From positions 39,100-103,099 of the forward strand of contig CAJNDT010000996.1 in the NCBI GenBank assembly GCA_905221615.1: a DNA stretch of 64,000 bases, written 5' to 3'. The stretch is from Symbiodinium sp. CCMP2592 (Eukaryota > Sar > Dinophyceae > Suessiales > Symbiodiniaceae). The notes beneath the pieces are model-generated. The model had not been told where the DNA came from, did not search any database, and saw nothing but the letters and a program-made list of their open reading frames with translations. Both the position numbers and the translations under genes were made by a program. Shown here piece by piece: positions 13,535 through 45,905 of this stretch. Each line of letters opens with the position of its first letter. Position 1 is the first letter of the stretch.

Positions 13535-14262
13535 ATGCCGTCCGAAGGGCATGCCGATCAATGGCCTAGCCACTTGCGGTTCCCTCCACCGCCTAAGCTT
13601 TTGTCGACCAGACCTTCGACAGCGATCCTGCCGCCGCGGCCCCCGCCAGTGCTGGTGGTCGACTTGGCATCGATCCCGAAACCTCCGCCAGTGCCTCCTC
13701 GACGTCCCCTTATGGTACCGCCTCCAGCTAGGCCTCTAGCCCCTGCAGACTTTAAGGCCAGGCCGCCAAAACTCCGCATGAGCATGAGTTGCCTTGCTTG
13801 ATTTCTTGTGTTTGCAGGCAGCATCTACAGAGAAAGCTGCAGCTGCCGTGGATCCCATGGGCAAGGCTGTGCATGTGTCTTTTGCAAAAAACACCAATAC
13901 CCTATATAGACTGCAACCCATAAACAACCCAAACCTGATATGGTATTGGCATGCTTGGGCTTGGATTGGTATTGAGCTTGCTAGGCAGATGGTGTGCCTG
14001 CGGTACCGAAGCCTTTGGAGGCTGCAGAGCTCCCGAAGGCTGTGTGCTTTTGAGTAAAACACCATGGACCCTAAAATAAACCGCCACCCGAAATAACCCA
14101 ATTGATTGTCTTGACCTGCTTGGATTGGATTGATATATTGAGCAGGCAGATGGTGAGCCTGCAGTGGTCGTGCCGAAGCATGCACCGAAGACTCCGCCGA
14201 TGCCTCCACCGATCCATCTGTATGGGGCATTTGGCAAATTTGGGGAGTATGCGCCGAAGACG
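13535..14262 (+). CDS. Proline-rich/RS protein gene, 5' exons (interrupted by a 31.6-kb insertion)
   Basis: Exon 1 starts at ATG 13,535 and is proline-rich (PSTAILPPRPPPVLVVDLAS, VPPRRPLMVPPPARPLAP). Three short exons follow with phase-0 borders: 13,818-13,868 (AASTEKAAAAVDPMGKA), 13,985-14,041 (ADGVPAVPKPLEAAELPKA) and 14,146-14,262 (ADGEPAVVVPKHAPKTPPMP then YGAFGKFGEYAPKT). Exons 2-4 begin with GC after AG; donors after exons 2 and 3 are GCT|GTG. The last codon, ACG (T), is completed across the insertion: at 45,906 the same frame continues PPLPPPAHGPADKPE. Motif PKTPPMPPP before and PKT|PPLPPP across the join support continuity. With its 3' part this gene encodes a Pro-rich protein with an RS domain, possibly RNA-binding or splicing-related; that role is inferred from composition alone. 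Confidence 0.7.
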
Positions 14263-14447
14263 TACACTAGCTAGCGTATCCTCCCGCCACCTCCCTCTAC
14301 ACCTCCGGGGAGTACGTAGCAAGCCTAGCTTAAGCTAGCTGGCTTCACGCAGTAGCACGGACAACACGAACTTCTCTCTTTTTAGCGTTGTGGCGAAGTC
14401 CCGCGTTAGCCCGGAGAAGAACTCTAGCCTTTGGCTAGCTAATCTCC
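14261..14447 (-). repeat. DIRS-like element: terminal repeat B2
   Basis: This 187-bp sequence is repeated at 14,691-14,877 with one visible mismatch (AGCTAGCTGG versus AGCTAACTGG). It starts CGTACACTAGCTAGCG and ends TAATCTCC. It is the outer, 3'-terminal repeat of the element. The near identity suggests a fairly recent insertion. Confidence 0.8.
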
Positions 14448-14464
14448 AGGGTGGGTTGGGTGGG

Positions 14465-14692
14465 CACTCGAAATTTGCCCCCCAATAGCTGGGGGCCTTT
14501 CAGCACAATGGCCACGGAGTAGCACTGCTTCACCGGCCATGTGCAGACACTCTAGCAAACAGACAAGCTTCGTTCTGTTTAGCTTCAGAGGAAAACCCCT
14601 TCGACGTTTTCTAGCGAAACACCTTCGATGTTTCCCAAAGGGATACTAGCGCTAGCATACACTGTCGTACCTCGTCCCTCGGCACGAGTGCG
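14465..14692 (-). repeat. DIRS-like element: internal repeat A2
   Basis: This 228-bp sequence (CACTCGAAATTTGCCCC ... GGCACGAGTGCG) is repeated at 45,678-45,905 with one visible mismatch (ACTAGCGC versus ACTGGCGC). It lies between the two 187-bp repeats and its last CG overlaps the first CG of B1. It is the internal copy of the 5'-terminal repeat A1. Confidence 0.8.
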
Positions 14693-14877
14693 TACACTAG
14701 CTAGCGTATCCTCCCGCCACCTCCCTCTACACCTCCGGGGAGTACGTAGCAAGCCTAGCTTAAGCTAACTGGCTTCACGCAGTAGCACGGACAACACGAA
14801 CTTCTCTCTTTTTAGCGTTGTGGCGAAGTCCCGCGTTAGCCCGGAGAAGAACTCTAGCCTTTGGCTAGCTAATCTCC
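14691..14877 (-). repeat. DIRS-like element: repeat B1
   Basis: Inner copy of the 187-bp repeat, lying 16 bp outside the RT/RNase H stop codon. B1 and A2 share the CG at 14,691-14,692. In DIRS-type elements this B1-A2 junction serves as template for completing the circular intermediate. Confidence 0.78.
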
Positions 14878-14893
14878 TTGCGCAGCCGTAGGG

Positions 14894-17056
14894 CTACCAG
14901 GGACCTAGCTTACGGGCCTTCTTAGCGAACCTCGGAGCCTTCGGCTCTCCGGTCCTTTTCCTCACTCCTAGCTCTTGGAAGTAGCTAGCCGAGTGTTCGA
15001 GGAGACGGCCCAGCACGCGCCACTCTAGCTTCTCCCCCTCCAGGTTCACCCTGAAGTCCGGGGAGAAACTAGCGAAGTTCTCGTTCGTGAGATCGTCCGC
15101 TAGCTGGTTCAGATCCCTGCGGATCCACTGTAGCTGAAGCTCACAGTTCTTAGCGGAGAGTTCCTCTGCTAGCTCCATCAACACCAAGGTCGATGGGAAC
15201 TTCGTCGTCATAGCCTTCTTCAGTAGCGCTTCGTTGGACTGGTTGTCAGTGTAGCCACGGATGGCCACCTTGGAGGTCTTCTTAGCATCCCCTTCCGGGA
15301 CCCAAAGCCTCACACCAACCAGAGTAGCCAGTAGCTCCAACGCGGCTATGACCTTGTTCGGGTCTCCTTTAGCGAAGGCCCAGGGGGCCCATTCCTTCTT
15401 CACCTCTAGCGAGAACCAGGGACCGTGGCAGCCGTCCACTAGCTCGAGGAAGCCCCCAATCCAGGCACGTCCATTCTCGGCTTTAGCGTCGGTGGAGCGG
15501 TGCCGCCCCGTCCAATAGCGAGGCCGGCTTCTGGAGACGGCCCCGCTTCCAGGCGGTCTGCTAGCCAGCCACAGAGGACGCGAATCATCGTGGGTAGCGT
15601 GAGGAGCCCCAGCTTCCCCTGAACGGCCGAAGACCAGGCGTGTAGCGGTCCCAGGAAGGGGCGCTCCCAGTCTAGCGCCATGGTTGCGAACCCCAGGCGC
15701 CCTACCCTTGTGCGAAGGGCCGAGCCTCACACTTCCCATCTCTAGCCATTCCACTAGCCAGTCGGTTCTCTTCTGAGACAGGCCTAGCCTCCAGGTGGAG
15801 TCCATGCCTAGCCACTCCACCCGAAATCCCCCCCTCGTCTTGGCCCACTTGAAGGGGTACCCAAGACTAGCGAGGAAGAGATAGCTTAGCGGGATCCCCA
15901 TGCGTCCTCTAGCCCCTCGGCCCAAGGACTCGAGGTCGTCGGCATAGAGAAGCATGTCTAGCGGGAACGATGGCCCTAGCAGGTGGTACGTGAGTCGAAG
16001 CCCACACGCCGCTATGCGGGTCCACCAGTAGCTCGCACATGATAGCCCGAAGGTCCCCACCAGATTAACGTAAACCGTCTGGCTGTCGGGGTCCCCCGGT
16101 GTAGCTTCCTCGGTGTCGATCTGACACCCTAGGTAGCCATGCTCTCCTTCGGCATGTTTGTAGCGTCGGTGAGCTTTAGCGATGTCGCCCACCACGGAGA
16201 AGGCCACCTCGTTAGCGTCGATGTGCTCCCGAAGTAGCTGCTTCTTCTCCCTAGCTCCTGGGGCCCGGATCTTGTCCCTGCACTTAATGCGGTGGTTGAC
16301 CCGGACCCCGTGGGTAGCATCGTGGATCATCCTCTTCTTTCCACTAGCTTCGTCCTCGACGATGACAGCTAGCGCGGCGATGGCTCGATGCTCGCCATAG
16401 CGGGCTTTGAACTCGCCTAGCGTCATCTTGACCATGAGGCCCTCCGCCACGTCCTCTTCGAACTTCTCCCTAGCGAACTCACGGTACTCCTCCACCGAGG
16501 AGTAGTTCGGGACCCAGGCTAGCGCCGCCTCCCAAGGGGCGTTCTCCAAGGGCCACTTTAGCTGTTCCTCGAAGACGTGGGGAGTGCGTGGTAGCGGGTC
16601 CCTCACCCCCACCGGTAGCCCCTCCTCGGCCTGGAGGAGGAAGTCCCTGTCGGGATCGCCGGCCGCGGTCAGTAGCGCCCGGATGAGGCGGAGGTATAGC
16701 GGCTGTTCCGGGGCCACCTTTAGCAGCTCCGGGTCTCCCAGGTCATTAGCTTCCAGCCACTCTTTCCAGATCAAGCGTAGCTGCTCCTGGAGATCTTCGG
16801 AGCTAGCTAGGGCACAGCCCGTGGCCCCCCCGGCAGCCATGCGGAAGGCTTCCTTCTCTAGCTCCGCTTCCGAACCTATCTTAGCAAGGATCACCTCCAT
16901 CATTTTCTCCCGTAGCCAGTCCCAGTTGGGACCTTCGGCGTAGCTGCGGGTAGCGTGGGGCCAGCGTCCTGGGGAGCAGAGGCCCCCACCATCATGGTAG
17001 CTCTTGTTGCCACCTAGCTGTTGGCAGGTCCTTGGTGGCCCTGAACCCCCTAGCAC
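14894..17056 (-). CDS. DIRS-like reverse transcriptase/RNase H
   Basis: This 720-residue frame reads from 17,056 down to 14,894. RT motifs: KKRMIHDATHGVRVNHRIKC, the first catalytic Asp in FSVVGDIAKAHRRYKH, YWWTRIAACGLRL, and the catalytic LLYADDLESLG, then LASLGYPFKWAKTRGGF. Further on, RNase H-like elements: AWIGGFLELVDGCHGPW, GYTDNQSNEALLKKAM, LQWIRRDLNQLADDLTNENF. Between about 15,500 and 15,690 the sense switches to another frame (MALDWERPFLGPLHAWSSAV ... LPTMIRVLCGWLADRLEAG), so two compensating frameshifts are likely and this copy would not give a normal protein. The order RT-RNase H without an integrase fits DIRS elements. The reading frame is filled with GCTA tetranucleotides in every codon phase. 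Confidence 0.85.
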   Translation of the reverse strand: MLGGSGPPRTCQQLGGNKSYHDGGGLCSPGRWPHATRSYAEGPNWDWLREKMMEVILAKIGSEAELEKEAFRMAAGGATGCALASSEDLQEQLRLIWKEWLEANDLGDPELLKVAPEQPLYLRLIRALLTAAGDPDRDFLLQAEEGLPVGVRDPLPRTPHVFEEQLKWPLENAPWEAALAWVPNYSSVEEYREFAREKFEEDVAEGLMVKMTLGEFKARYGEHRAIAALAVIVEDEASGKKRMIHDATHGVRVNHRIKCRDKIRAPGAREKKQLLREHIDANEVAFSVVGDIAKAHRRYKHAEGEHGYLGCQIDTEEATPGDPDSQTVYVNLVGTFGLSCASYWWTRIAACGLRLTYHLLGPSFPLDMLLYADDLESLGRGARGRMGIPLSYLFLASLGYPFKWAKTRGGFRVEWLGMDSTWRLGLSQKRTDWLVEWLEMGSVRLGPSHKGRAPGVRNHGARLGAPLPGTATRLVFGRSGEAGAPHATHDDSRPLWLASRPPGSGAVSRSRPRYWTGRHRSTDAKAENGRAWIGGFLELVDGCHGPWFSLEVKKEWAPWAFAKGDPNKVIAALELLATLVGVRLWVPEGDAKKTSKVAIRGYTDNQSNEALLKKAMTTKFPSTLVLMELAEELSAKNCELQLQWIRRDLNQLADDLTNENFASFSPDFRVNLEGEKLEWRVLGRLLEHSASYFQELGVRKRTGEPKAPRFAKKARKLGPW

Positions 17057-17278
17057 TCGCGGACCCTCCGTCGGGAAGGTCTCGGGTAGCGGGCACTCCG
17101 GCCTAGCGCCACCCCCCTCCCCCTGGGCAGGAGTCCAGAATCAGGGTAGCCAGCCACTGGCACATCCTAGCGGGCCACTGGAACCTGCCGGCTTCGCTGG
17201 CGTAGCAGCCAGTGGGTCTGGCGTAGCTTCCCCCCCCGGGGGGGTCGCAGGCACTGAGGGCGCAGCCGCCGTAGCGGG
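17057..17278 (-). other. DIRS-like element: proline-rich linker between zinc-finger ORF and RT
   Basis: No intact frame. A - strand frame reads proline/alanine/glycine-rich sequence (ACDPPGGEATPDPLAATPAK), likely the linker of a gag-pol protein. A G/C run lies at 17,231-17,245. TAGC motifs continue at the same density. Confidence 0.4.
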
Positions 17279-17611
17279 TCAGTTGGAGGGCTTATCCTCC
17301 TTAGCGGCCTCCGTTTGCTTGGTGGGGCACTTCGTAGCTGGGTGCTTGCCGAAGCATAGCGAGCAAACGTGCTCGAAATGGCACTTGTTGCCATTCTTGC
17401 ATCCCTTGGCATTGTAGCGGAAGCAGATGGGCTTCCCCTGCGGGGTGCGATCGGCACCCAGGCGCTTCTTAGCTTTGCCCCCCTTGGGGGGGACGTCTTT
17501 GCCTTTGCCCTTCCCCTTGGGGGTCTTAGCAGGCCGCTCCTCCGTCCAGGTCCAGGGCTGCGGCCGCTTAGCATGGAGGGCTAGCGGTGTAGTGAAGTGC
17601 CTCTCCTTCAC
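17279..17611 (-). CDS. DIRS-like gag C-terminal zinc-finger region
   Basis: The frame has a lysine/glycine tract (KTPKGKGKGKDVPPKGGKAK), then CFRYNAKGCKNGNKCHFEH, a textbook CCCH zinc finger (C-x7-C-x5-C-x3-H), followed by CSLCFGKHPATKC, a second zinc-binding cluster. CCCH fingers bind single-stranded RNA, so this is the expected nucleic-acid-binding end of a gag. It follows the gag frame with a break of about 120 bp in which other frames are used (17,635-17,823), so gag is frameshifted here. A specific interaction with the GCUA motif of the element RNA is a testable idea only. Confidence 0.7.
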   Translation of the reverse strand: MKERHFTTPLALHAKRPQPWTWTEERPAKTPKGKGKGKDVPPKGGKAKKRLGADRTPQGKPICFRYNAKGCKNGNKCHFEHVCSLCFGKHPATKCPTKQTEAAKEDKPSN

Positions 17612-17731
17612 GCTAGCGTCCTTGTAGGCAAGGACTAGCGCAGCGCCGAAGGAATAGCCGCGTGGCCATGACCTTGTACGCGTGCTTCCTGATAGCGTGC
17701 TCGTAGCTCAGCACCAAGGTCCACGGGGGCA

Positions 17732-18505
17732 CTAGCGACCCCGAGTCGGCACTGGACCGGAGACCATAGCAATAGTCTCCGAGAAGATAGTCTTTGTAGC
17801 GCTCGAAGAGGCCATAGTGACATCCTGTAGCTCCTCCCGGTTGGGGTGCCTTAGCTGCATCATGATTAGCGTGTTCTGGAGCACCGTGAGCCGCAGCCGT
17901 AGCTGCTCCGGCCCAGAAGGCATGGGGGCCCTAGCTCCCCCCTTCTTCATGGATGGCGTGCCATTGCCATTCCAGACGGGCAGTAGCGCGTCGGGGTCCC
18001 ACTCGTCCCGGCTAATGACCTCGGTTAGCGGCTCGGCCCGGAACTCGCCAGATTCGAGCTCGCCTAGCTTCTTCTCAAGGTACTCTTTAGCGGGGGTTTG
18101 CTTGTCCTCCAGGTCTCCGAACTTAGCGGTGAAGGCCTGGCGCATGGCCATATAGTCCGTAGCGGGGATGGGTTTTGCCCAATCCCGGACCTCGCTTGTA
18201 GCCTCCGCCTCCGCTTGCCGCTCGGAGCGGGAGGTAGCGGTCCTCCATGCGATGGTGACCCCCGCGGCCTGAGCGCGGCTAGCGAGCGAGGTGGACGGCT
18301 CAATTGCAAAGCTGTCCTTTAGCATCTTCTTGAGGTCCGCCTCATCTGTTGCCGAGGCTGCAAATTTAGCGACGGTATCAATACCGTTGGAAAAGAGCTC
18401 GGATTGGATAGCATCCGAGACTTTATGTTGCACTAGCAGGAATCGAAGCTCGCTGCTTCCGAGGGCTAGCTTCTTCGCCAGAGCCTCTGCCATGGTAGCA
18501 GGCAC
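17732..18505 (-). CDS. DIRS-like gag N-terminal region
   Basis: This 257-residue frame starts MPATMAEALAKKLALGSSEL and is helical and charged: LLVQHKVSDAIQSELFSNGI, TDEADLKKMLKDSFAIEPST, then YMAMRQAFTAKFGDLEDKQT and LRLRLTVLQNTLIMMQLRHP. The N-terminal part resembles the short helical DNA/RNA-binding domain often seen in gag-like proteins of dinoflagellate DIRS elements; that is recollection of a general pattern, not a search result. Position upstream of a CCCH finger and RT supports gag. The C-terminus (VSGPVPTRGR) is produced by a frameshift into the following region. Confidence 0.6.
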   Translation of the reverse strand: MPATMAEALAKKLALGSSELRFLLVQHKVSDAIQSELFSNGIDTVAKFAASATDEADLKKMLKDSFAIEPSTSLASRAQAAGVTIAWRTATSRSERQAEAEATSEVRDWAKPIPATDYMAMRQAFTAKFGDLEDKQTPAKEYLEKKLGELESGEFRAEPLTEVISRDEWDPDALLPVWNGNGTPSMKKGGARAPMPSGPEQLRLRLTVLQNTLIMMQLRHPNREELQDVTMASSSATKTIFSETIAMVSGPVPTRGR

Positions 18506-18916
18506 GACGGGCCCTACGCCACCTTAGGGAAAAACTTCAAGGGAAAAATTCCTGCTAGCACATTGGGGAAAAGCTCCTAGCGTGAGAGTGTGTCAGGGAG
18601 TGCCAGTCGATAGCTTTCGCTAAAAGGGGTCGCTGCAGCAAAGAGCGGCCCTAGCAGCCCCACCGACCCCGGCCCCTCCCCCCCCAAAACTCTCGACACT
18701 CTCTCGCTCTAGCCTTCCCTTCTTTCTGGCTGCCGACATGTGTGTAGCATGACTGTAGCGTGCACACACTGGCAACTGTAGCGAGGGACGGCCTGAACTT
18801 TTGCTGCAGCTAGCGGTCGGCAGCAGAGGGCGCTGCAAGAGTAGCCGCATGCAAAGCAAAAGTAGCGGGTGCAAGTAGCGAGGCCGGGGCCTGTAGCGAG
18901 GCAGGGGCTGCCCGTC

Positions 18917-19234
18917 TTAGCGGCCGCCCCAGTCCTCCCCGCGGCTCCACTGCTTGCACCCATCACAACAGTGAGTAGCGTGGTCGTCGCACTTAAACCA
19001 CATCCGCCTGTTACAGGCTCTTAGCGAACAGACCTCGCAGGTCGTAGCGCACCTGAAAATACAGGCGTTAGCGTCCCAGTGGCCTAGGGAGTAGCGGCAG
19101 CGTCCAGGCTGGTACTGCGTATAGCAGCTTGGTAGCAGCATGGCCAGCAACTCGCTAGCGCTCCCCCTGGGGCGTGTTAGCGGGAGGATGGGTGTAGCGA
19201 CACATAAGTGCCACGTCTTCCCTCCCTCCAGCAC
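18917..19234 (-). CDS. Cysteine-rich ORF near the internal breakpoint
   Basis: This 105-residue frame starts MLEGGKTWHLCVATPILPLT and has a dense cysteine/histidine cluster: CIFRCATTCEVCSLRACNRR, then KCDDHATHCCDGCKQW. The spacing suggests two or more zinc sites (B-box- or ZZ-like). It lies upstream of gag on the element's sense strand and its start codon is inside the half-palindrome region, so the real start may have been in the sequence now 22 kb away. TAGC density is normal for the element. The function is not recognised. Confidence 0.4.
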   Translation of the reverse strand: MLEGGKTWHLCVATPILPLTRPRGSASELLAMLLPSCYTQYQPGRCRYSLGHWDANACIFRCATTCEVCSLRACNRRMWFKCDDHATHCCDGCKQWSRGEDWGGR

Positions 19235-19244
19235 GGGCTGTTCG
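19228..19244. repeat. Left half of a split palindrome (insertion site)
   Basis: CCAGCACGGGCTGTTCG. Its exact reverse complement is at 41,578-41,594. Joined at their shared CG the two halves form a perfect palindrome centred on TTCGAA. TAGC-rich element sequence lies outside each half and host-like sequence inside. Confidence 0.85.
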
Positions 19245-19539
19245 CCCTCTAGATCCCATTCGCTTGTTCGTTCCTATTAACTGGTTAGATCCCATACTTG
19301 GGATGATCAGAAGATCATAATGCCGTTGCTCGATCTGATCCGTAGACCATATGCCATGAAATTGAGTATTTAAGTCATGATTTCACCAAGAAATCCAATC
19401 ACAAAGATCGCAAGTCACACGGCCCGCAAAAATATGTTCAGTCTTTTGCGGAATATCTACGTTTCACTCACCAACGATCCATGTATATCACGATCGAGGA
19501 TCGTGATCCATTGCGATTCGAACAAAAAACCTTAAACCC

Positions 19540-19664
19540 CAAAACCCTAAACCTTATTATATATAGACATACGTGCATAGCCACAGAAACACATAGACCC
19601 ACAAACATATACATATGGTATATACGTATTTACATATATACCAGTATACAAATGTACATATACA

Positions 19665-19700
<36 letters not shown>

Positions 19701-19818
19701 TACTTACATCATATACACATACACCAAGATACGTATATGTGTATATGATGTATGTATATATATATATATATATGTGTGTACATCCACACGTGTATACGTA
19801 CATACATACATACATACA

Positions 19819-19868
<50 letters not shown>

Positions 19869-19890
19869 CGTATACATATATATTTAAATA

Positions 19891-19922
<32 letters not shown>

Positions 19923-20060
19923 CACACATACACTTATACATGTACATATACATATGCATACACCTATACACATATACACATATATAAATACAGCAAGTTT
20001 CAATGTGCACACGCTTGCATACATACACAACATATACATATACATATATGTATATACAGA
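19540..20060. repeat. AT-rich microsatellites and telomere-like fragment
   Basis: CCCCAAAACCCTAAACC occurs near 19,537-19,553, followed by long (CATA)n, (TATA)n and (ACATAC)n tracts to about 20,060. All reading frames here (YIYIYI-type) are artefacts of the repeat. Confidence 0.8.
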
Positions 20061-20424
20061 TTCGCACGGTGACCGAAGATCAAGATCGATCTGTGCTGGG
20101 AACGCGGTCCAGCCCATGGGCATGCAGAACAGATTGTCTCCCCTCTTTCATTTTTGAAGTTTGCATTGAGAGTATCGATCAGCACCGGGTCGAATGGCAG
20201 AGAAGTTGCAAGAGCTGACGACTGCATGTGACATTCCGCATGCCAGACGTGTTCTGACATCGTGATGCCACAGGGTTTTGTTCGAGCGCCGGCCATACAG
20301 GCATGAAGCACGCATATAAACTTCTCAATAAAACGCTAGGGTACGTAGGAGCCCCAAACATGTTCGGAGAATAGTGAGTTCAAACCGATCTCTTTAAGTT
20401 GCACCAATTAGCAAAATCCTAGCC

Positions 20425-20838
20425 ATGCCTTCGACCCAAGCGGGAAATTCTCGGAGGTCGAAAGTGGAGCAGCTTTCAGCCCTGTTCTGGCAGCACTTAT
20501 TCCGGGATTATCTGTCCGACATCAGGACTACAGGAACAGTGGTTCCCACTAATACGTTGAGGCATCGTTCCAGCAGGCAAAGGCTGCATTTTGCATCCCA
20601 AGTAAGTGGCAGAATTTTCACTGAGGGGATCGTGAAAGACGCCTTGCAGAAAGTGGTGACAGACCACGCCGTTGAGCTTCCATCTACCCCAGGCTTCTCA
20701 CTGGACGGTTGGCTAGATACGACAACAAGTAGTTTGTCCAAACTACTTCAAAGGGCCCGACGATCCACTGTAGCCATGGACTGTGATGAGACTCAGCCTT
20801 GGGATTCAGCCGTGGACGTGGACCCTATGGAGGACTGA
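20425..20838 (+). CDS. Hypothetical protein, 137 residues
   Basis: The single-exon frame starts ATG 20,425 (MPSTQAGNSRRSKVEQLSAL) and ends TGA 20,838. It is compositionally normal with a helical N-terminal half (FWQHLFRDYLSDIRTTG), a middle part (GRIFTEGIVKDALQKVVTDH) and an acidic C-terminus (DCDETQPWDSAVDVDPMED). No family is recognised. Composition supports a real coding region; no splice signals were assigned. Confidence 0.5.
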   Translation: MPSTQAGNSRRSKVEQLSALFWQHLFRDYLSDIRTTGTVVPTNTLRHRSSRQRLHFASQVSGRIFTEGIVKDALQKVVTDHAVELPSTPGFSLDGWLDTTTSSLSKLLQRARRSTVAMDCDETQPWDSAVDVDPMED

Positions 20839-21085
20839 CTGTAATAGGGACCGCTAACGATGGAATTTCGCTTTCTAGATTAGTTGATAAGCTGCAAATT
20901 GCATGGGCAGGACTCGCAAGTACCACTGGTTAGCAAGAGGTCTTCTGGCCACTTGAGTGTTCCTTGCCTACATACTATAAGAAGTTTCTATGCGCACTAG
21001 TATTCGTGAAAACGGCTCCGCGTTTGTATCTAAGGATGTGGTGCCCTCGAAACGCTTGCGCCTACGTGGGAAGACGCAACTGAGC

Positions 21086-36775: not shown

Positions 36776-36845
<70 letters not shown>

Positions 36846-36884
36846 GCGGGCACAAATACTTCAGTCTACTCTCTCTGGCTCGCT

Positions 36885-36929
<45 letters not shown>

Positions 36930-37100: not shown

Positions 37101-37134
<34 letters not shown>

Positions 37135-40000
37135 TCACATAGCCTATATATCGTTTTTTTAGCAAAGAAATCACTTATCCTTATCTACTCTCTGCAACCT
37201 ATTCACCGCAACAGTTCCTTAAGATTGCATTGTATGTCCCTGCGTCGTGGAAATACCCAGCCGATCGAGGAAAATGATTTGCTGAAGTATTGGCACGAAT
37301 TATCCAACACCGACTGGTTTCGGCAGCACCCGCTTCTTCAGGCTACAAGACTGCATAGTGCATTTTTCTAATTCGTGCAATGCCATTGCGCTTACATGAC
37401 CCTGAGGCCACCGATCCCAGATTCTGTATCCCATTGAGGATATACGGGGATGGGGCGGAGTCTACGAGTCACTCGGCTGAACAACGGATCCCATATTGCA
37501 TCTGACTATGTTGCTGGCCTAATTATCTCTCATCAGGACATCAAACCTTTGAATGTTTTGCACTCTTGGCGCCGATGGCTTCCTCATCGACAATGCTGTC
37601 ACGTTTCTTGTGTTTTGGCAAATATATGGAGAGAGTCCATTGCCCAGCTATTGTAGTGCCGTTCTACACAGAAACTTGCACCTAGGATCAGCTGCATGAA
37701 CATGCAGTATCATTCTGGTGATTGCCGCCACACGATACTTGAAACGATCAAGTGGTCGTTCGACTGTTTAGGCTGCTTCGATGCAACAAGTGATTCTACT
37801 TTAAATGCCAGCTTTTTGTGTTTGAACAAGGAGCCGGAGTGTATCCGACGGCAGATCCTTGGGGTAATGCTTTCGGCCCCGGGTACATGCCACAGCGCTT
37901 CAAGCTTGCTGGCCAACGCATATGTGGGCCATATATTGGAATATTCGATGGGGTGCAGGCGGATTTGGAGTTTGTGAAAAAGATTTTCTACCTGCACCGA
38001 GCCTCACTCGCAATATGTTGCATGTTGGAATCGATCAACTTCTGAAATCAAGAGCTCCATGAATCGTACGGGTAATGGCCCAGGGGATTACTCGAGGAAG
38101 ATGATGTGTCATTATTGCGGAGAATCTCGAGCTGCACTAGCAACACACATTCATTGCATGATTTACTTGAAATTCTTCAATCGCACCAGCTAGGCCTTGG
38201 CCTGGACCTACATTTCGGAAGATCCTGCTGCACCTAACGACCCCGAGTTGTTGTACACTGCCTTTGGTCGCAATGCAGCGCACAGAGGGACGTGGCTGGG
38301 TGGCAATAATACCTATGCGTCCCAATATACGTTATCTAAAGACGGAATAGCAATTACTGAGTGGCTTAAGGACAAACCCTGGTGTCCCCAAAATAAACTC
38401 GGTTCCGAGGCTCATCGCCGATGCCGGTGAATTCCGACAAATCCATGGTGAATCACCTTTGTCATCAATGATCGGATTCTCCCCGTGGAGCACTCTGTTC
38501 TGCATTATAAGACAATTGAGCGGTTTCGCATGCCTGCAAGTTTGGATCTAAACCTATCCTGATTTGTCAAGGAATCCTGGGTGATGTGATGCATTTATTG
38601 CATCTGGCGATTTTCCCAGACGCCATCCTGAGTATGATGCTGGATTTGACTGATCATGCTACACCTCACCGCGATCAAGCATTGACAGAAATGTGGGAAA
38701 ACTACAGGGGCTGGTGCGAGTCTCTGGGCAGCTCGGATAATTTTAGTTGGACGCCAACATGATCGATATCGAGACTTGAAACCCGGATGCCTTATAAATG
38801 CGATCTCAGGAGTGGCCGACAGAGCCCGCAGAAAGCTGTTCTCGTCGAAGACATTGCGGCCGAACCACAAGGAGTACAGGACGATATCGCAGAAGATCCT
38901 CAGTGCCAGCGCGGCACGTTACCTGATGATGTGGATGAAGGCTTACGTGGTGTCACTCCTGAATGCTGAGCCCGAGAGCCTCTTCCTTCAGTGCCTTGGA
39001 AGTTTAAGTATTCTATGTTGTGCATTGTGCTGTGTGTTTCTGTGCGCGCTTTGGGAGAATCAGACAAATGCAGACAATAAAAGGATTTATGGCTAGCTCG
39101 AGTTTGGAGTCGGATGTTGGATCTTCAATTAAAATCGAAACATATGATCCTTCATTGGTTTACAATATAAAGGTGCGATATCAACTTGTCAATTAGGGTG
39201 AATGCAAAATACAAGTACTGCATGAGCTATTATGGGTCATTAATGACCAATTGGTTCCTCACCAGATCGAAGCCGGAATCAACAAATCAAGCCTGGTTCG
39301 TGCTAGCTCGGGTGAAAAGTGACTTTGGTCTATCGACATATATAGGCCTCAAACCCCAACCTTTAATCCAAAATATACGACGGCACCAATACCAGAACTC
39401 CACGCGCCAAATCCTGCTACACCAAAATACACTAAACCCTAAACCCATAAACCCCAATATTTACACTAAGCCCTAAGTACTAGAAACGGTTAGTTTTCGA
39501 CAATATAAGCTCAACTTCAGGTTGCGTGCAGCAGTTTGCATCGGCCTTGCAAAGATCGAGGAGATAATGCTCTCCGCTCAGTGCCCGGGCTGATCGAATT
39601 CCTTATAAGGTTTTGGATTATGCTTGACATTTTAAATTTCTATAGTTGCAAGATCATGGTCTACTCATGTGGCAGGCGCTTGCACTCAGCATCTGAGACT
39701 TGGGACCTCGAGAACTACTACCTGTTGTACCGCTCAGCTTATAACAAGCTAGCTGAAGAAGCTCTGGAGTATTCTGCCACCCGGTGGCCAGTGCGCCCGA
39801 AGTGTCACTATTTCGAACACCTAGTGTTCGACATGCGTGGACTTGACGACCGTGCCTTTAATGCCCGATTTTTTTCGAACTACCAATGCGAAGACTGGGT
39901 TCGCCGATGCAAACAACTTGCGGTCCGATCTCACCAGGCACATCTCTCGGGACACGTCGTGCTCAAGTATATTCTCCAGTTCGCTTTGCAGTGGCGGTAA
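36288..40000 (+). pseudogene. Multi-exon family gene, copy A (in the insert)
   Basis: Successive coding blocks align in order with copy B at 50.9-52.7 kb: about 37,380-37,460 (FCIPLRIYGDGAES; copy B has ITPLQLWGDEGTLR), 37,818-37,990 (GYMPQRFKLAGQRICGPYIG), 38,100-38,125 (KMMCHYCGESRAA; copy B MICPFCHAGKTHM), 38,200-38,290 (AWTYISEDPAAPNDPELLYT), 38,573-38,660 (GDVMHLLHLAIFPDAILSMM; copy B FDLMHVWHLGCGRDIAGT), and 39,660-40,000 (SETWDLENYYLLYRSAYNKL ... RPKCHYFEHLVFDM; copy B RPKGHALQHMIQF), ending in a stop at 40,000. A (CT)n tract lies at 36,780-36,935. The DxMHxxHL and RPKxHxxxH motifs suggest a transposase- or nuclease-derived family, but this is unproven. No single open gene was assembled, so it may be decayed. 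Confidence 0.45.
36778..36935. repeat. (CT)n microsatellite
   Basis: CT repeats fill about 36,780-36,841 and 36,890-36,925, with shorter tracts near 36,997. The serine/leucine frames here are repeat artefacts. Confidence 0.9.
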
Positions 40001-40685
40001 AAATGACGGCCGACAGTCATGCACGATTGCAAGTGTTCTGATCACTAGCGCTGGCATGTCACAAGTGTTATAAAGCTGATTCGATATGCAAGACGACGCC
40101 GTGCATATATGTGCTCGATCAGGACATCTTAAGTTTCCGAACTTGTTTACAATTTACTGCACGTACAGGTTTAGGGCTTCGAGCTATATTTCAGGCTTCT
40201 ATTGACCTTTGGCGTAGACAGTACGTAATAGACCGGACAACGTGCCGGCTACATAGCATGGATGGGCCTTTCAGCTGCTCGATCGTACTAGATGAAGCGC
40301 GGATCTGAAATATGTTGGAACTTGCTACACCGAGGATCTGTGGATGCAGTTTGCTGAAATGCACCGCATCTTGGTTCATATTACAGTATACCTGGGTACA
40401 CTGGAATAAACAAGTCATGTATTCCCAAGGTTCCCCATAACCTTATACTTATACCCGTCGAAAACTTTATCTTAAGCCCGAACATATGTAAATCAATGAG
40501 TTGATTTTTCAAGTGTCCCTAGTTTAAGTATAACCAAACTCCAAGCGTTAATCTTGCTGAGCCGAGGATTGATATCTGATGCGATTCGAATCGATAGATA
40601 TGGGGCCATCGATGGACCAGATTCGATGCAGCTCCTGGGCTTTGCCAATGATGGCGACCATCGCCGGATTATATGCAGATTACTA

Positions 40686-40722
<37 letters not shown>

Positions 40723-40926
40723 TATATATATATATATGTTTGTGTATATATATATGTGTATATATATACATATATATATATTAAATAGTTAATTAATTGA
40801 TTAACTTGTATGCACGAGCTAAGGTATATGCGAGTGCGCGCTCGAACATTGCGTGCGAACGACTGCAGCAAAATGGGCTGGATCGAGCTGGATCGAGCTG
40901 CACTTTTTCGTATCTTCACACATACC

Positions 40927-40959
<33 letters not shown>

Positions 40960-40961
40960 GA

Positions 40962-40992
<31 letters not shown>

Positions 40993-41029
40993 TATACATA
41001 CATATTAACATGCGCTCTTCATACATGAA

Positions 41030-41074
<45 letters not shown>

Positions 41075-41577
41075 ATATATATATGTAGATTCACTCGTAC
41101 GTAAATAAAAACAAATATATGTGTACATACATACATACATACATACATACATACATACAGACACACAGACAGACAGACAGACAAATATGCAAGGTTAACC
41201 CTGAATCGGACCTTAAACACCCAATCCCAAACCCCTCACCCTATTAGTGCGGCTCAAAATGCTCAAACGTTGGGCATTTTTTCTCGTGCAACAGGCCTTA
41301 ACTTCACCCTTATAAACCGTTTGCTTGTGCAGGTGGCTTTTTTTGAGTGGCTCAAGTGCGACCTGTACCGGTTATCGAACTCTTATCCGTTGGTTCGAGC
41401 TTCTTGCATGCCGGCGCATGTACAATTTGCTCGTATTTACAGCTCTCGAGCCTCGAGCTTTCCTGCCTGAGCTGTTTTGGATACATTATGGATGACAACA
41501 TGGCCGGAATCCAACACCCGAATAAGCTATTGACTTCTAAGATTCCGATCTTCTTGTAACCCACGGTTCAAACCCGT
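40001..41577. repeat. Non-coding right end of the insert, AT/GTAT microsatellites
   Basis: (AT)n tracts lie at about 40,685-40,740, 40,935-40,985 and 41,040-41,065; (ACAT)n and (ACAG)n at about 41,125-41,185; CCCAAACCCC near 41,220. A weak exon (VAFFEWLKCDLYRLSNSYPL) is possible near 41,330-41,400. The right edge is TTCAAACCCGT next to the half palindrome. Confidence 0.5.
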
Positions 41578-41594
41578 CGAACAGCCCGTGCTGG
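41578..41594. repeat. Right half of a split palindrome (insertion site)
   Basis: CGAACAGCCCGTGCTGG, the exact reverse complement of 19,228-19,244. The first TAGC of this arm of the element follows immediately (GGCTAGCGAG). Confidence 0.85.
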
Positions 41595-42130
41595 CTAGCG
41601 AGTAGAGGTGCTCTCCATGGTGGATAGCGCTCTTCAGTAGCGTGCCATCGGCACCCTTGCCGTAGCGGGGGTTAGGCCCCTTGCCTTTCCCCTTCTCATG
41701 GCGCTGGTCCCAGGAACCTAGCGGCCACAGATCGCGGTCAATAGCGGACCACGAGAGCTCGAGGTACCAGTAGCCCTCCCCCTTGGGGAGACTGTTAGCG
41801 TGGGCCCCCGGGGGGGGTCTGGCTCGTCCCTTTAGCGCCACGCTCACTGGCTGGAGCTCGCGGCGTAGCAACTCCAGGTAGCGGTCGGGATCCTCGAATA
41901 GCGTGCCCCACGTGTAGTCGAACACATTGATTGTAGCGGGCGGCTGGCCCTTGCCCTCGGCCGGCTTGCCCTTAGCGCCCTTGCCTCGGCCCCGGCTCGG
42001 GCTGGTCGCGCGAGGGGGAGGGGCTAGCGGCCCTTGGCCCAATCTCCATGAACCTCCTAGCGGCCGACTCTGCCGGCGTAGGGTCCACGTTAGCCGGTGC
42101 CGTGGTGTCGGCGGCAGCAGCGGCCACCGG
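41578..42130 (-). CDS. DIRS-like element ORF, C-terminal part cut by the insert
   Basis: The - strand frame from about 42,030 reads SRGRGKGAKGKPAEGKGQPP, then INVFDYTWGTLFEDPDRYLE, LLRRELQPVSVALKGRARPP and YWYLELSWSAIDRDLWPLGS, ending in HHGEHLYSLASTGCS at the palindrome. Upstream of about 42,030 the sense is in the coiled-coil frame 42,883-41,972, so a frameshift separates the two. The frame runs out into the insert, where it loses sense. It is probably a gag-like or accessory protein; no family is recognised. Confidence 0.45.
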
Positions 42131-42883
42131 TGCCGGGTCGACACTGCTGGTAGCGGTGGCATCTCTGGTAGCGGCCTCCTCTGCGGCCTGCAGGGAGGCT
42201 TTGCTAGCGGCCACCGCCTGCTGGTACTCCAGCTCGGCGGCCTGCTCCTCCTTAGCGAGCCGCTCCGCGGCCTCCTTCCGCTTTTGCTCTAGCGCGGCCG
42301 CTGCGACCCTCTGGTCGTGCTCGGCCTTTTTCTCTAGCGCCAGCTTAGCGGCTGCGGCCTCCGCGTCCTTGCGGGGCTTGGCCTTCGCAGCGCTAGCGGC
42401 CGCATTGGCAGCGGCGAGCTGGTCTAGCTGGGCCTTTGCTGCTGCAGCGGCGGCCTCTGTAACTACTAACCTCTGCGTGAGGCCCGCGGACATAGCTTCG
42501 TCCAGGCTAGCGATGTCCTCCTGGGACAGGTCGGCCCAGCTAGTAGCGGATAGAACTCGCCGCTCCATCAGGTTAGCGGGGCTCTGTTGGCGTAGCCCGG
42601 CCCCTATCCACTTCCTTGGCGGGGACTCTTTGTCTAGCGTCTCGATCGCCTCTTGGGACATAGCGATCAGCTCCTGTAGCAGAGGCTTGTCGAGGTAGCG
42701 TGGCAGGCCCTCGGCGCACTCCGACGGCCTAAACCGTAGCGCCTTCCGCAGACCGCGGAGGGTCTCTGGGAGGTAGTCTCCACTAGCGGGCTGCTCTGCC
42801 GTAGCTGGGCCACCTGGTGGCCCTGCGCCCTTGGGCGTTGTAGCGCTGGCATCCTTGCCTTTTCCTCCCATAGCGGCGCCCAA
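41972..42883 (-). CDS. DIRS-like element ORF: alanine-rich coiled coil
   Basis: This 303-residue frame starts MGAAMGGKGKDASATTPKGA. An N-terminal globular-looking part (YLPETLRGLRKALRFRPSEC, LPRYLDKPLLQELIAMSQEA, SPANLMERRVLSATSWADLS) is followed by about 120 residues of Ala/Lys/Glu heptads (AEAAAAKLALEKKAEHDQRV, KRKEAAERLAKEEQAAELEY) predicted to form a coiled coil. Its start is downstream of a poly-G tract and tandem repeats. It sits between the recombinase and the insert. A capsid-like or assembly role is plausible but inferred. Confidence 0.55.
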   Translation of the reverse strand: MGAAMGGKGKDASATTPKGAGPPGGPATAEQPASGDYLPETLRGLRKALRFRPSECAEGLPRYLDKPLLQELIAMSQEAIETLDKESPPRKWIGAGLRQQSPANLMERRVLSATSWADLSQEDIASLDEAMSAGLTQRLVVTEAAAAAAKAQLDQLAAANAAASAAKAKPRKDAEAAAAKLALEKKAEHDQRVAAAALEQKRKEAAERLAKEEQAAELEYQQAVAASKASLQAAEEAATRDATATSSVDPAPVAAAAADTTAPANVDPTPAESAARRFMEIGPRAASPSPSRDQPEPGPRQGR

Positions 42884-43280
42884 GGCACGGATCAGGTGAA
42901 ACGGCTAAAGAAAATCTAGCTACCCCAGGGTAGCGAAGCCGAAGGCTAGCCGTGGGAGGAGGTTTAGCACAGTCACTGGCTCCTGCGCCTAGCTCCTTTG
43001 TAGCCCTGTTGCCTCGCGGGTGCAAGGCCCGCACGTTTCGTAGCGCCTTCCTCCGCTCCTTAGCTCCTTCCTGCAAGACGGACCTAGCGCAAGCACTGGC
43101 TCCTCACCTAGCTCCTGTGTTCCCTGGGTGGCCAGACGAGGGGTCGCCCGGCCCCGGTTTCCTAGCGCCTGCCTTCGCTCCTTGCTCCTCCTGCAAGACA
43201 CTAGCGGAACACGAAAGCACAACACAGGCAACAGCAAGTGACATGTAGCAAGAACGTGGTTCCCTCCACTCTCTTCTTTC

Positions 43281-43350
<70 letters not shown>

Positions 43351-43487
43351 AGCACACCCCCTTTAAAAACTAGCGGCGTTTCGCAAGGGAGGGAAGAGAG
43401 AGAGAGAGAGGGAGACAGAGGGGAAAGGAAAAGAGGGTGCCGACCTAGCAGCCTTTCTAGCCTCAGTGCGAGTGCGAGTTCGGCGGC
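42884..43487 (-). repeat. DIRS-like element spacer: tandem repeat and 68-base C tract
   Basis: An imperfect repeat of about 120 bp (CACTGGCTCCT ... CTCCTGCAAGA) occurs twice at about 42,973-43,084 and 43,097-43,200. The C tract spans 43,282-43,349 (68 bases; poly-G on the element's sense strand). GA repeats lie near 43,393-43,413. TAGC motifs continue on both sides. The spacer separates the recombinase unit from the coiled-coil ORF and could hold an internal promoter or a G-quadruplex. Confidence 0.6.
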
Positions 43488-43970
43488 TTAGCACGCCCTG
43501 CGCTCAAGGATGACTGCTAGCGGACCCCGTTGCGTGATCCTCTGGGGCCTCGTCATCTTCCGAGTTAGCGAGCGATCCTTCGCTAGCGTCCCCTTCGGAG
43601 ATAGCCCCCTGGTTCGGCCAGCATAGCTTGCACACATGTGTGTACTCATGCGGCTCCGGAACCGAATCAAAAACCCTAGCGTTGCGGAAGCACGCCGCTT
43701 CCCCATCCAGCAACCTGTAGCGCCCGCTTTGTGCAGGCGGAAAATGGCACCTGGGACCTCTACGATTACATAGCTGCCCTGGCTGCGGTCGGGAACCCTG
43801 GCCTGCTTCTTAGCGGGCCGTTCCACGACCTCTGCAGAGGCCTCGGAGCTACTCCCGGCCACTAGCGGTTCCGCGGGCTCGTCCGGTCCCTCGAAAACCT
43901 CTAGCTCTTCCGCCTCGGTCGGGACTCCTAGCAGGCCCTCCATCCAGATCTTCCGCAGCCTCGCCGCCAT
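43488..43970 (-). CDS. Tyrosine-recombinase ORF C-terminal tail (CxxCW motif)
   Basis: The frame starts MAARLRKIWMEGLLGVPTEA, continuing the recombinase after a frameshift near 44,000, then acidic sequence (EVFEGPDEPAEPLVAGSSSE) and SQGSYVIVEVPGAIFRLHK. A second frameshift near 43,715 moves the sense to ACFRNARVFDSVPEPHEYTH, VCKLCWPN and an acidic serine tail (DEAPEDHATGSASSHP). HVCKLCW with an upstream C/H pair may bind zinc. Two frameshifts suggest decay or indel errors in this GC-rich region. Confidence 0.5.
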   Translation of the reverse strand: MAARLRKIWMEGLLGVPTEAEELEVFEGPDEPAEPLVAGSSSEASAEVVERPAKKQARVPDRSQGSYVIVEVPGAIFRLHKAGATGCWMGKRRASATLGFLIRFRSRMSTHMCASYAGRTRGLSPKGTLAKDRSLTRKMTRPQRITQRGPLAVILERRAC

Positions 43971-43989
43971 GTGGATAGCCTGGCTGTGG

Positions 43990-45627
43990 GTTAGCTTGGC
44001 CCTCTCTTCCGGGGATCTCCTTTAGCGCCAAACCTGTTGGTAGCACCGAGCGCTCACTGTGCTCCGTCCAATAGCCCTGGACCTCCCGTGGGTAGCCCAT
44101 GATAGCCAGCAGCCCCGCGGTTGCCACCATAGCGTCCGCATAGGTAGCCATCTTCTTCTCCAGTTGCCCCGCCCGGCCCAGCCGCGGCATGAGGTAATCC
44201 CGGGCGTAGTTAGCGTGGGCCTTGAGGAGATCGAAGCCGGTCACCAGCCAGCTCTTAGCGACCAGAAAGGCGTGCTCGGACACCACGACCGGTAGCTCCT
44301 TGACCCTTCTCGTAGCGCCGGAAGTCTTGGTCTTCCGGAGGATGGTGGTGAGTCGCCCCTCCACCATCACTAGCTCGGCCGGCAGGATAGCCTGAAGGTC
44401 CGACCATCTTAGCGTGGCCCAGACCTTGACCAACTTAGCCCAGGCCCAGATCCGCCAGCCTGCGGCCAGGGCGGGGTTGATGACCACGAGCTCTAGCTGC
44501 ACCAGCATGTAGACGGGATAGCGGGGCGCTCTCTTGATCAAGGGGGCCCCCTCCGCTAGCTGCTCCACAATGCTGTCCTTAGCGGCCCAGACCAGGCGAC
44601 CAAAGGTGGTCCTTAGCTCCACCGGGAAATCGGCCACCTTCTCCATCCAGGAGATAGCCTTGAGAATAGCTTCTGGGACCGAACGGCCGCAGGGTTCATC
44701 ACTCCTAGCGAGGAGGTAATCCACCAGGTCCGCGGCGGTGCCCGGGGGCGGCCTGAGCTTAGCTGCGTGGAGCCATTGGCGCCACTGCCTGTAGTAGCTC
44801 AGGTAGCGCTTCAAAGTCGACGCCCGGGTCTTCCCCGGAAGCAACATAGCTGCCCTCGCGGGGTCCAGACTCCCGTGCAACTTAGCGAGAACCGGGGCAT
44901 GTATCTCTAGCAGCTCTTCACGGAGCTTCCTTGCCCAAACCTCTAGCAGTCGCTCCTCTCTAGCCGCACTGATCGTGCTGGGCTGTAGCGTCTTCCGATT
45001 CCGCTCCCCGGGGGGAGGTCTTAGCGGCGCAGGTGGCTGATGCACCGCGTCTTCGACCTCTTCCCTTGGAGCAGGTAGCGGTGGCATCCGGGCTCTCCAG
45101 GTGATATCGTCCTGGAAGTAGCCGTGCACCCTCTGATAGACAGTAGCTTCCTGCCGCGCTTCTTGCAGCCAACAGTAGACACCATCCCATAGCCACGGCT
45201 GGTATGGAATACCTAGCTCTCGAGCTAGCTGCTTGGCGACATCCTCCGCGTCGTCCAGATCCACCACTGCTAGCTCCAAGACCCCAAACCCTTGGCTGGA
45301 GAGATGCCGGTAGGCCCTGTCTAGCGTGCGCCTACGTTCCTGCTGGACCGTAGCCTGCGCCTCTAGCTCTGCCTCCATCTCCCAGCCCTCGAAGAGCACT
45401 CCCGTCTCTTCGGGCTGTGGGTCGCTAGCTGGGGTCTGCGGGACCCACGAGGGTACCTCCCCGGAAGGAGCCCCCGCGGTATCGTCCCCCCCTAGCGTGG
45501 GAACCTCGGTAGGACACGAAGCACTTAGCGGGGGCGGGGAATCCCCAACCACAGTAGCGCAGTCGACGGCCGTAGCGGCTGCGCCATCTGGCGTGGTCGG
45601 CGCCAGGGTAGCGTCGCTGTCCGACAT
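43990..45627 (-). CDS. DIRS-like tyrosine recombinase
   Basis: Tyrosine recombinases join the circular cDNA of DIRS elements to the target without a large duplication. The frame starts MSDSDATLAPTTPDGAAATA at 45,627. The core region has an N-terminal SAM-like part (LKRYLSYYRQWRQWLHAAKL, DLVDYLLARSDEPCGRSVPE), the first catalytic Arg in WATLRWSDLQAILP, a beta-strand lysine region (LTTILRKTKTSGATRRVKEL), and the HxxR box in YWTEHSERSVLPTGLALKEI. The expected GRW ... Y segment with the nucleophilic tyrosine is not readable after the HxxR box: sense passes directly through a frameshift into MAARLRKIW. The enzyme in this copy is therefore probably inactive. The start lies about 50 bp from terminal repeat A1. 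Confidence 0.8.
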
Positions 45628-45677
45628 GGCAGCGCACCCAAAGCAGGGCTAATTAGCCCTGTTCCCCTTCCTACCCC

Positions 45678-45905
45678 CACTCGAAATTTGCCCCCCAATA
45701 GCTGGGGGCCTTTCAGCACAATGGCCACGGAGTAGCACTGCTTCACCGGCCATGTGCAGACACTCTAGCAAACAGACAAGCTTCGTTCTGTTTAGCTTCA
45801 GAGGAAAACCCCTTCGACGTTTTCTAGCGAAACACCTTCGATGTTTCCCAAAGGGATACTGGCGCTAGCATACACTGTCGTACCTCGTCCCTCGGCACGA
45901 GTGCG
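45678..45905 (-). repeat. DIRS-like element: 5'-terminal repeat A1
   Basis: This 228-bp copy of the repeat at 14,465-14,692 ends on the host side with GAGTGCG. The host coding frame resumes at 45,906. On the element's sense strand it precedes the recombinase ORF and probably carries the promoter. It contains six or more TAGC motifs. Confidence 0.82.

Follow-up and report, generated by a model that had tools for sequence, protein, structure and literature searches.

The window analysed here, a stretch of 64,000 nucleotides (nt) from the dinoflagellate Symbiodinium sp. CCMP2592 (contig CAJNDT010000996.1), contains a DIRS/PAT-type retroelement whose sense strand is the minus strand and which is split in two (window 45905-41595 and 19227-14261). 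In its 9,278 nt the whole element carries 289 sense-strand copies of the word GCTA, and these make up a selected, sense-strand, family-specific spacing code that extends along the entire element, through coding and non-coding DNA, with the words about 30 nt apart. The word, which appears as TAGC on the plus strand, had been picked out in a sequence-only reading of the same DNA; the two tracts counted there -- 22 TAGC from 14906 to 15516 with gaps of 4-46, and 16 from 44041 to 44519 with gaps of 10-66 -- were recounted with exactly the same result.

Density, strand and codon tests

Against the 127 GCTA of the 5' part of the element, 1,000 dinucleotide-preserving shuffles gave 29.2 +- 4.7 with a maximum of 46; against the 162 of the 3' part they gave 34.6 +- 4.9 with a maximum of 52. 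Plus-strand TAGC runs at 26-32 per kb in the seven kilobases lying fully inside the element and at 0-9 in those fully outside it, and the 22.4-kb insert between the two parts has GCTA at background, so that the density is indeed missing from insert and flanks, as had been claimed. The reverse complement is not enriched on the sense strand, where it occurs 17 and 29 times in the two parts, 12 and 20 of these within GCTAGC. The strand specificity asserted earlier therefore stands, while the statement that the opposite orientation appears almost only where GCTAGC forces it went too far, the forced share being 32 of 46. Among words with at least 15 sites in windows of 1.5 kb (the listing was thinned), no other tetramer is both equally enriched and evenly spaced: the others with z > 12 (TAGT, GTAG, AGTA and GACA) all lie in tandem repeats, with a coefficient of variation (CV) of gaps of at least 2.9, as against 0.34-0.60 for TAGC in windows inside the element, and AGCG inside the element (z 7.8, CV 0.40) overlaps TAGC. 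The letter before the word is not the free base it had been taken for, since in the window copy G is avoided before the motif, and T is avoided after it.

The motif is also found in the non-coding DNA of the element, at a density about equal to that of the coding DNA (74 GCTA in 2,268 nt). For the coding test, 6,615 nt of blocks were used with frames set block by block, about 395 nt near frame breaks being excluded. These blocks hold 201 GCTA, in all three codon phases (89/25/87), against 89.6 +- 6.3 and a maximum of 113 in 1,000 within-block shuffles of synonymous codons that keep both the protein and the codon use; the earlier contentions that every phase is used and that codon bias is insufficient are both borne out. 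In 87 of the 90 CTA leucine codons the preceding letter is G. The proteins of the element are themselves bent to fit the motif in two of three residue-pair classes: pairs of Ala followed by K, N, T, S, R, I or M number 132 where 86 +- 7 are expected, and [SCGR]-Tyr pairs 26 where 12 +- 3 are expected, while the third class, Leu preceded by a residue that has a codon ending in G, is at expectation (194 vs 193).

The spacing rule

Within the coding blocks there are 352 places where GCTA could be written synonymously, and it is written at the 201. The chance that a possible place is used varies with the distance to another GCTA, from 4 of 40 at less than 6 nt through 41 of 84 at 12-17 nt and 39 of 44 at 24-29 nt to 34 of 34 at 36 nt or more. 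The gap CV in coding DNA is 0.43, compared with 0.805 +- 0.053 for random choice among the possible places, and the longest coding gap is 68 nt where random choice gives a mean of 152 and never less than 93 (0 of 2,000 for either measure). Per nucleotide, the chance of meeting the next GCTA is 0.005 at distances below 10 nt and climbs to 0.05-0.11 past 40 nt. Over the whole window copy, 285 of the 287 gaps are no longer than 70 nt, in keeping with the earlier impression that long gaps are avoided; the remaining two measure 75 and 125 nt, the longer one spanning a 68-nt run of G on the sense strand, and 19 gaps are shorter than 12 nt. Gaps in non-coding DNA are less even (CV 0.63, G run included), yet their CV lies below that of 5,000 out of 5,000 random placements.

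The spacing is also even across the breaks in the element: 34 nt across the reconstructed empty insert site (with the 2-nt overlap counted), and 35 nt across a deletion in the Pol region of the window copy. There is no helical (10-11 bp) phase in the gaps, and helical phasing on DNA was rejected on that account. As fillers of gaps in the window copy, 12 one-mismatch words were tried and rejected, with the exception of a hint for GTTA (4 sites, p 0.008).

Relatives in the same genome

Searches of the same genome covered 1.098 Gb in 5,383 contigs. From 2,552 candidates, of which the best 60 were scored, the reverse transcriptase (RT) open reading frame (ORF) gave 61 matches, counting the window itself and one place that appears twice as separate pieces. 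By identity they form three families: the window's own at about 80-94%, here called the 90% family, one at 70-71% and one at 66%. The RT, methyltransferase-domain and tyrosine recombinase (YR) searches yielded the same three families as far as identities tell, among the best 60-137 of 1,325-2,662 candidates; further distant families with other spellings may lie beyond the candidates scored. Whether relatives keep the motif had been named as a way of checking it, and all 15 of the 15 regions fetched are saturated.

Spacing was computed for 10 of these 15 regions, over stretches chosen by the analyst. In the window's family (L012, L013, L022) GCTA comes every 31 nt with a CV of 0.46-0.50. In the 66% family (L017-L020, L024) GCTA alone comes every 44-46 nt with a CV of 0.68-0.74, and each stretch also holds 80-112 GATA, about four times the expectation from base composition; the union of the two, G[C/A]TA, comes every 29-30 nt with a CV of 0.53-0.58. 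GATA fills the gaps left by GCTA: with GCTA fixed and GATA placed at random, the null CV is 0.81 and never below 0.67, against an observed union CV of 0.56 in L017 and 0.58 in L019 (0 of 2,000 as low for each). The letters around the core differ as well. In the window's family (L012) C is favoured and G avoided before GCTA, in the 66% family (L017/L019) G precedes G[CA]TA at 73-76% of sites, and in the 70% family (L016) an A stands at +5, two letters after GCTA, in 46%. Because of these family-specific flanking letters, the two larger families use largely exclusive pentamers.

Site turnover and present selection

In their RT-RNase H cores, L012 and L017 share 71% of amino acids and 68% of nucleotides; there L012 has 67 GCTA with a mean gap of 31.5 nt and L017 has 70 G[C/A]TA with a mean gap of 30.5 nt. 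In place, 18 of the 67 GCTA of L012 are conserved in L017 (0.27), as against 0.25 for other tetramers. To judge from such alignments, sites have been replaced freely between L012 and L017, less so between L012 and L016, with the spacing kept.

Present variation was read from 12 loci aligned to L012 and 14 loci aligned to L017, with alignments shorter than 400 nt or below 90% identity excluded; the comparisons share ancestry and are not independent. At fourfold-degenerate third positions of the window's family, synonymous differences occur in 456 of 8,328 comparisons outside the motif and 14 of 2,113 inside it, and in the 66% family 1,139 of 8,463 outside and 56 of 1,631 inside, which makes synonymous changes that break the motif about 8-fold (L012 family) and about 4-fold (L017 family) rarer than others. 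Non-coding DNA differs in 172 of 9,060 comparisons outside the motif and 8 of 1,569 inside it in the L012 family, and in 131 of 4,481 and 10 of 775 in the L017 family. TAGC standing apart from the motif varies more than GCTA -- 11 of 248 bases (8 sites) vs 39 of 8,986 in the L012 family, and 15 of 284 (11 sites) vs 102 of 5,082 for GCTA and 40 of 2,892 for GATA in the L017 family -- and a strand-symmetric low mutation rate is therefore unlikely. Where motif sites have been lost in the L012 family, the merged spans are shorter, 51.6 vs 62.4 (31 sites, p 0.0008). Selection acts on the spacing and the spelling of the motif more than on particular places.

A proposed reader, and the alternatives

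These elements probably form a clade with a genome-wide address code, in which each family has a 4-5-letter plus-strand word about every 30 nt, an element-encoded reader and a spelling that has diverged (CGCTA versus GG[C/A]TA), each family mobilising itself alone; in such a code the words could drift while the metre stays fixed. More tentatively, and with a confidence that stops just short of calling it probable, we infer that a protein of the element, most likely Gag, coats the plus-strand RNA by way of words about 30 nt apart and so tells its own family from others. The proposed reading would take place on nucleic acid of the plus strand, most probably the genomic RNA, and the sequence-specific protein doing it would be encoded by the element. 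A single-stranded or polar reading is implied by the sense-strand bias; that the reader comes from the element is suggested by the different spellings of sister families sharing a nucleus. Our preferred candidate is Gag, which ends in a CCCH finger and a knuckle and would fit as the binder of GCTA; ORF2, with its conserved Cys-rich domain, ranks second. Each copy of the protein would bind one word and cover about 15-30 nt, a footprint per bound unit in agreement with a soft lower limit near 12 nt and with a cost that rises once gaps exceed 40 nt, and the RNA would be evenly coated. An extra site within about 12 nt would add little, and a word-free stretch would leave bare RNA at a cost growing with its length. 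Since families in the same nucleus are spelled differently, each would package its own RNA and not that of its sisters or the host. The sequence-only reading had offered both binding by Gag and a self/non-self mark among its possible meanings: the latter is supported, because sister families in one genome spell differently at the same spacing and the motif is under purifying selection, and the former is consistent with what was found.

A number of results weigh against this picture. The 70% family (L014, L016) is more widely spaced, with GCTA every 40-41 nt (CV 0.50-0.51), and the longest gaps reach 112-134 nt in the window's and the 70% families (84-123 nt, for the union, in the 66% family). 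Between L012 and L016, which are 70% identical in DNA, 28 of 67 GCTA are shared (0.42 vs 0.28 for other tetramers). Other tetramers with at least 15 sites are in a few cases less variable than the motif: 2 of 139 in the L012 family, compared with GCTA, and 4 of 105 in the L017 family, compared with GATA. The lost-site effect is weak in the L017 family (28 sites, p 0.083) and was not seen in the L016 family (7 sites, p 0.57), and in none of the three families do motif gains fall significantly more often in long gaps. Predicted RNA accessibility at GCTA, from local folding of the window copy in which hairpin loops were not separately scored, is ordinary (compared with tetramers of similar composition, GCTA ranks 30th of 66 and 37th of 84); a preference for unpaired RNA was accordingly rejected, and signals presented in stem-loops, as in RNA viruses, are not seen. 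Finally, three families are too few to trace the spelling to one protein, and the methyltransferase-like domain of Pol covaries with the spelling too.

That domain is the strong rival as reader, though we consider it unlikely. In the families with an SPPC motif it would methylate, at regular intervals, the C of GCTA on plus-strand RNA or cDNA as a self mark against host silencing or nucleases, and in the 66% family a dead enzyme would still bind, so that C is no longer required. The domain lies in one open frame with RT in L012 and L017, and a profile of the three families matched DNMT2/TRDMT1, a tRNA cytosine-5 methyltransferase, alone among the sequences of the Protein Data Bank (PDB), in two matches over motif I and SPPC at E 0.54 and 0.85, below significance; Pfam DNA_methylase gave E 0.3 for one of the three families. 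The Cys of SPPC is catalytic in such methyltransferases. Among the copies read, which were loci of one orientation, all 7 from the 90% family and all 3 from the 70% family carry SPPC, making 10 of 10 for the two families that write GCTA. None of the 9 from the 66% family (L017, L018, L019, L020, L024, L029, L031, L034, L035) does; these have SPPA or SPPV in its place, with the other motifs of the domain conserved, and theirs is the sole family whose word accepts A for C. Symbiodinium DIRS elements with DNMT3 in Pol have been described, with a self mark on the cDNA proposed (available text of PMC5890265). Set against this, the covariation amounts to one contrast and the family match is sub-threshold; spacing and constraint are undiminished in the 66% family although it lacks the catalytic Cys, which makes catalysis dispensable and means that methylation is not the whole purpose of the code; and resident copies of the 90% family show no excess of C-to-T at GCTA (10 of 2,683, compared with 156 of 15,179 at other non-CpG C).

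A mark at the DNA level, with silencing or chromatin under the control of a host or element factor or a base modification, such as 5-hydroxymethyluracil (5-hmU), that recognises GCTA in the resident copy, seems quite unlikely: GCTA does contain TA, TA dinucleotides outside GCTA are depleted in the element, and 5-hmU has reportedly been found in TA and TC contexts in older work, while the sense-strand bias, the lack of a 10-11 bp phase and the differing spellings among families of one host all speak against it. In its favour, 5-hmU is enriched over repeats in Breviolum minutum; against it, no sequence motif is reported for 5-hmU in the available text of the same paper (PMC11071213). If the words were sites at which RNase H of the element, or a different processing enzyme, preferentially cuts RNA hybridised to cDNA into pieces that must be short enough to leave the cDNA, this would account for the strand specificity, the ceiling on gaps, the dispensability of near sites, the whole-element extent and the indifference to structure, and its reader, being element-encoded, could vary by family. 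Known RNases H cut with low sequence specificity, and a soft rising hazard centred at 30 nt is tighter than melting requires; we hold this explanation to be improbable. That the pattern is an artefact, whether of codon bias, of a mutational hot spot or of sequencing or assembly, can be given next to no credence, there being nothing in its favour beyond the element being GC-rich and TA-poor. Codon-preserving shuffles fall short, the non-coding density is about equal, no one-mismatch neighbour of GCTA is depleted enough to be a mutational source, motif bases vary less than others and the reverse complement more, and saturation recurs in all 15 separate loci fetched. The shuffles and the variation counts accordingly led to the rejection of codon bias, dinucleotide composition and mutational conversion.

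Organization of the element

The features of the window copy are listed in Table 1. The repeats are ordered A-coding-B-A-B, with A1/A2 identical at 227 of 228 positions and B1/B2 at 186 of 187, and B1 and A2 overlap by 2 nt. Both of these mismatches, the sole two, fall inside GCTA sites (GCTA/GCCA and GTTA/GCTA). The limits given to the two parts by the sequence-only reading (19244 and 41578) have to be moved to 19227 and 41595, since the stretches 19228-19244 and 41578-41594 belong to the insert, as its 17-bp inverted ends. These ends read CCAGCACGGGCTGTTCG, with a 2-nt target overlap relative to L012; the insert looks like a large DNA transposon.

Table 1. Features of the split retroelement in the 64-kb window (positions in the window).
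Feature	Position	Strand	Remarks
5' part of retroelement	41595..45905	-	4,311 nt, 127 sense-strand GCTA
3' part of retroelement	14261..19227	-	4,967 nt, 162 sense-strand GCTA
Terminal repeat A1	45678..45905	-	single mismatch to A2, within GCTA site
Repeat A2	14465..14692	-	partner of A1
Repeat B1	14691..14877	-	single mismatch to B2, within GCTA site
Terminal repeat B2	14261..14447	-	partner of B1
YR ORF, frame-broken	43504..45627	-	recombinase motifs by eye, no Pfam match
ORF2, first part, frame-broken, truncated by insert	41595..42871	-	61 nt shorter than L012 at 41850
ORF2, last part, conserved Cys-rich domain	18917..19227	-	
Gag-like ORF, frame-broken, terminal CCCH finger and CxxC-H-C knuckle	17281..18493	-	
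Pol RT/RNase H ORF	14894..17140	-	748 amino acids open, internal frame shifts vs L012
22.4-kb insert, later, 17-bp inverted ends	19228..41594	.	outside code, GCTA at background
68-nt G run (sense strand), YR-ORF2 spacer	43282..43349	-	causes longest GCTA-free gap, 125 nt

Better-preserved relatives have the gene order YR, ORF2 (Cys-rich end), Gag (CCCH finger and knuckle) and Pol (methyltransferase-like, RT, RNase H). The window copy is a deletion derivative that was afterwards split by the insert. Relative to L012, it has lost 176 nt of the YR ORF, including the Tyr region, at 44010/44011, and 746 nt at 17187 with the methyltransferase-like domain that relatives carry in Pol; L012 in turn is short of some 135 nt that the window has in its YR region. 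Both the Tyr region and the methyltransferase-like domain are gone from the window copy, yet each of its terminal repeats shows a single base difference, so that its mobilisation may have occurred in trans. The YR-ORF2 spacer of L012 also has a long G run.

The YR of the better-preserved relatives shows, by eye, LRWSDL..LRKTKT..EHSER..GRWKPEGSDxY, the signature of tyrosine recombinases being R-K-H-R-Y; Pfam Phage_integrase does not match the window YR ORF at E up to 10, nor those of L012 and L016 at E up to 1. Pol shows YADD and an end of the form TDN...NQLADDLTN, again by eye. Pfam and NCBIfam searches with the ORFs of the window and the relatives gave weak matches at most: for RNase H, NCBIfam at E 0.0061 (L012) and RVT_3 at E 0.029 (L017), and for the Gag-like ORF, zf-CCCH at E 0.0086 and 0.013, both under the curated cut-offs. 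A search of PDB sequences with RT returned crystallins, taken as chance, and one with the Pol N-terminus alone returned none. Structures predicted from the single sequences of YR and RT had poor confidence (mean pLDDT 43 and 35) and were set aside.

Elsewhere in the window, a perfect 72-bp tandem duplication at 45904-46045 adjoins the 5' border of the element. A minus-strand ORF at 60825-62609, beside tandem repeats, matches a C-5 cytosine DNA methylase (PF00145, E 2.5e-11). A piece of the spliced leader had no match in the 64 kb.

Elements without the code

The copia-type element at the left of the window (RVT_2, E 3.5e-8; 3542-5857, plus strand) served as a control and is not saturated. The Phage_integrase model has 66 matches in the same genome, and 14 of the 66 were read, in a 3-kb piece each; none of the 14 is saturated with a fixed 4- or 5-letter word, a measure that a looser code could escape. 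Their highest tetramer z values are 2.5-5.0, where pieces of the same length from the three families reach 11.4-17.9. Judged by eye, the 14 comprise seven in which the recombinase is accompanied by DIRS-like frames of RNase H or methyltransferase-like type, six that resemble Cryptons and one of unclear type. Some of the DIRS-like ones show a mild excess of a word, far below saturation: GTATG occurs 9 times in L036 and 8 times in L046 (about 2 expected), GTAT 14 times in L043 (6 expected) and GCTAT 11 times in L036 (2 expected).

Five of the Phage_integrase matches, including the four strongest of the whole search, lie on one contig (C5051, 1.22-2.28 Mb), which suggests that this may be a bacterial contig within the eukaryotic assembly. 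Scans of viral_contigs with the RT and YR peptides and three DNA patterns returned two loci (L001, L002; best tblastn E 0.052) that are not relatives, and scans of genome_contigs returned no match.

Significance and comparison with known systems

How retroelements find their own RNA, and how related families avoid mobilising each other, are largely open questions beyond a few local packaging signals, and in the present case the solution may run the full length of the element, as a text open to counting, recoding and testing. Here a selected constraint overrides synonymous freedom and even the choice of amino acids, which matters for the use of synonymous sites as a neutral standard. The even spacing of a word on one strand also provides a simple statistical test for hidden whole-genome codes in transposons and viruses. 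No such code was present among the literature matches listed for GCTA or TAGC in retrotransposons and dinoflagellates, dispersed packaging signals and tetranucleotides, nor among those listed for GCUA with CCCH fingers, multiple Gag sites and spaced short transposon motifs (mostly CRISPR).

Zinc fingers that read about four RNA bases are familiar from the murine leukemia virus nucleocapsid (MLV NC), which binds UCUG, and from the CCCH fingers of MBNL, which bind YGCY; the proposed reader would resemble them in this, and we know of no genome saturated with the binding site of either. Short repeated DNA motifs that license or steer a process include the periodic A/T clusters (PATCs) of nematode germline genes and Chi and KOPS of bacteria, the latter two strand-biased; they differ from the present code in not being family-specific, in not lying within one mobile element and in having no 30-nt spacing rule. 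Dispersed RNA packaging signals are also said to occur in satellite tobacco necrosis virus (STNV) and in parechovirus.

Closest in structure are the SymbioDIRS and DIRS-PAT elements (PMC5890265, PMC3266345), the DIRS-type elements of Symbiodinium having A-coding-B-A-B repeats (PMC5890265). They are like the present element and its relatives in this arrangement, in a putative YR, in Gag and in a Pol with putative RT, RNase H and methyltransferase-like domains, and in a divergent RT that Pfam misses; a dispersed, spaced motif goes unmentioned in the available text of the two papers. The packaging signals of RNA viruses such as MS2 and hepatitis B virus (HBV) are the nearest parallel to the code itself, being likewise many dispersed copies of a short motif whose spacing matters (PMC6281560, from the text available). 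Those signals sit in stem-loops, while the element shows no preference for unpaired RNA, and as far as that source goes the element is set apart by a fixed tetra- or pentanucleotide in about 289 copies, spelled differently by each family and held at a near-constant spacing.

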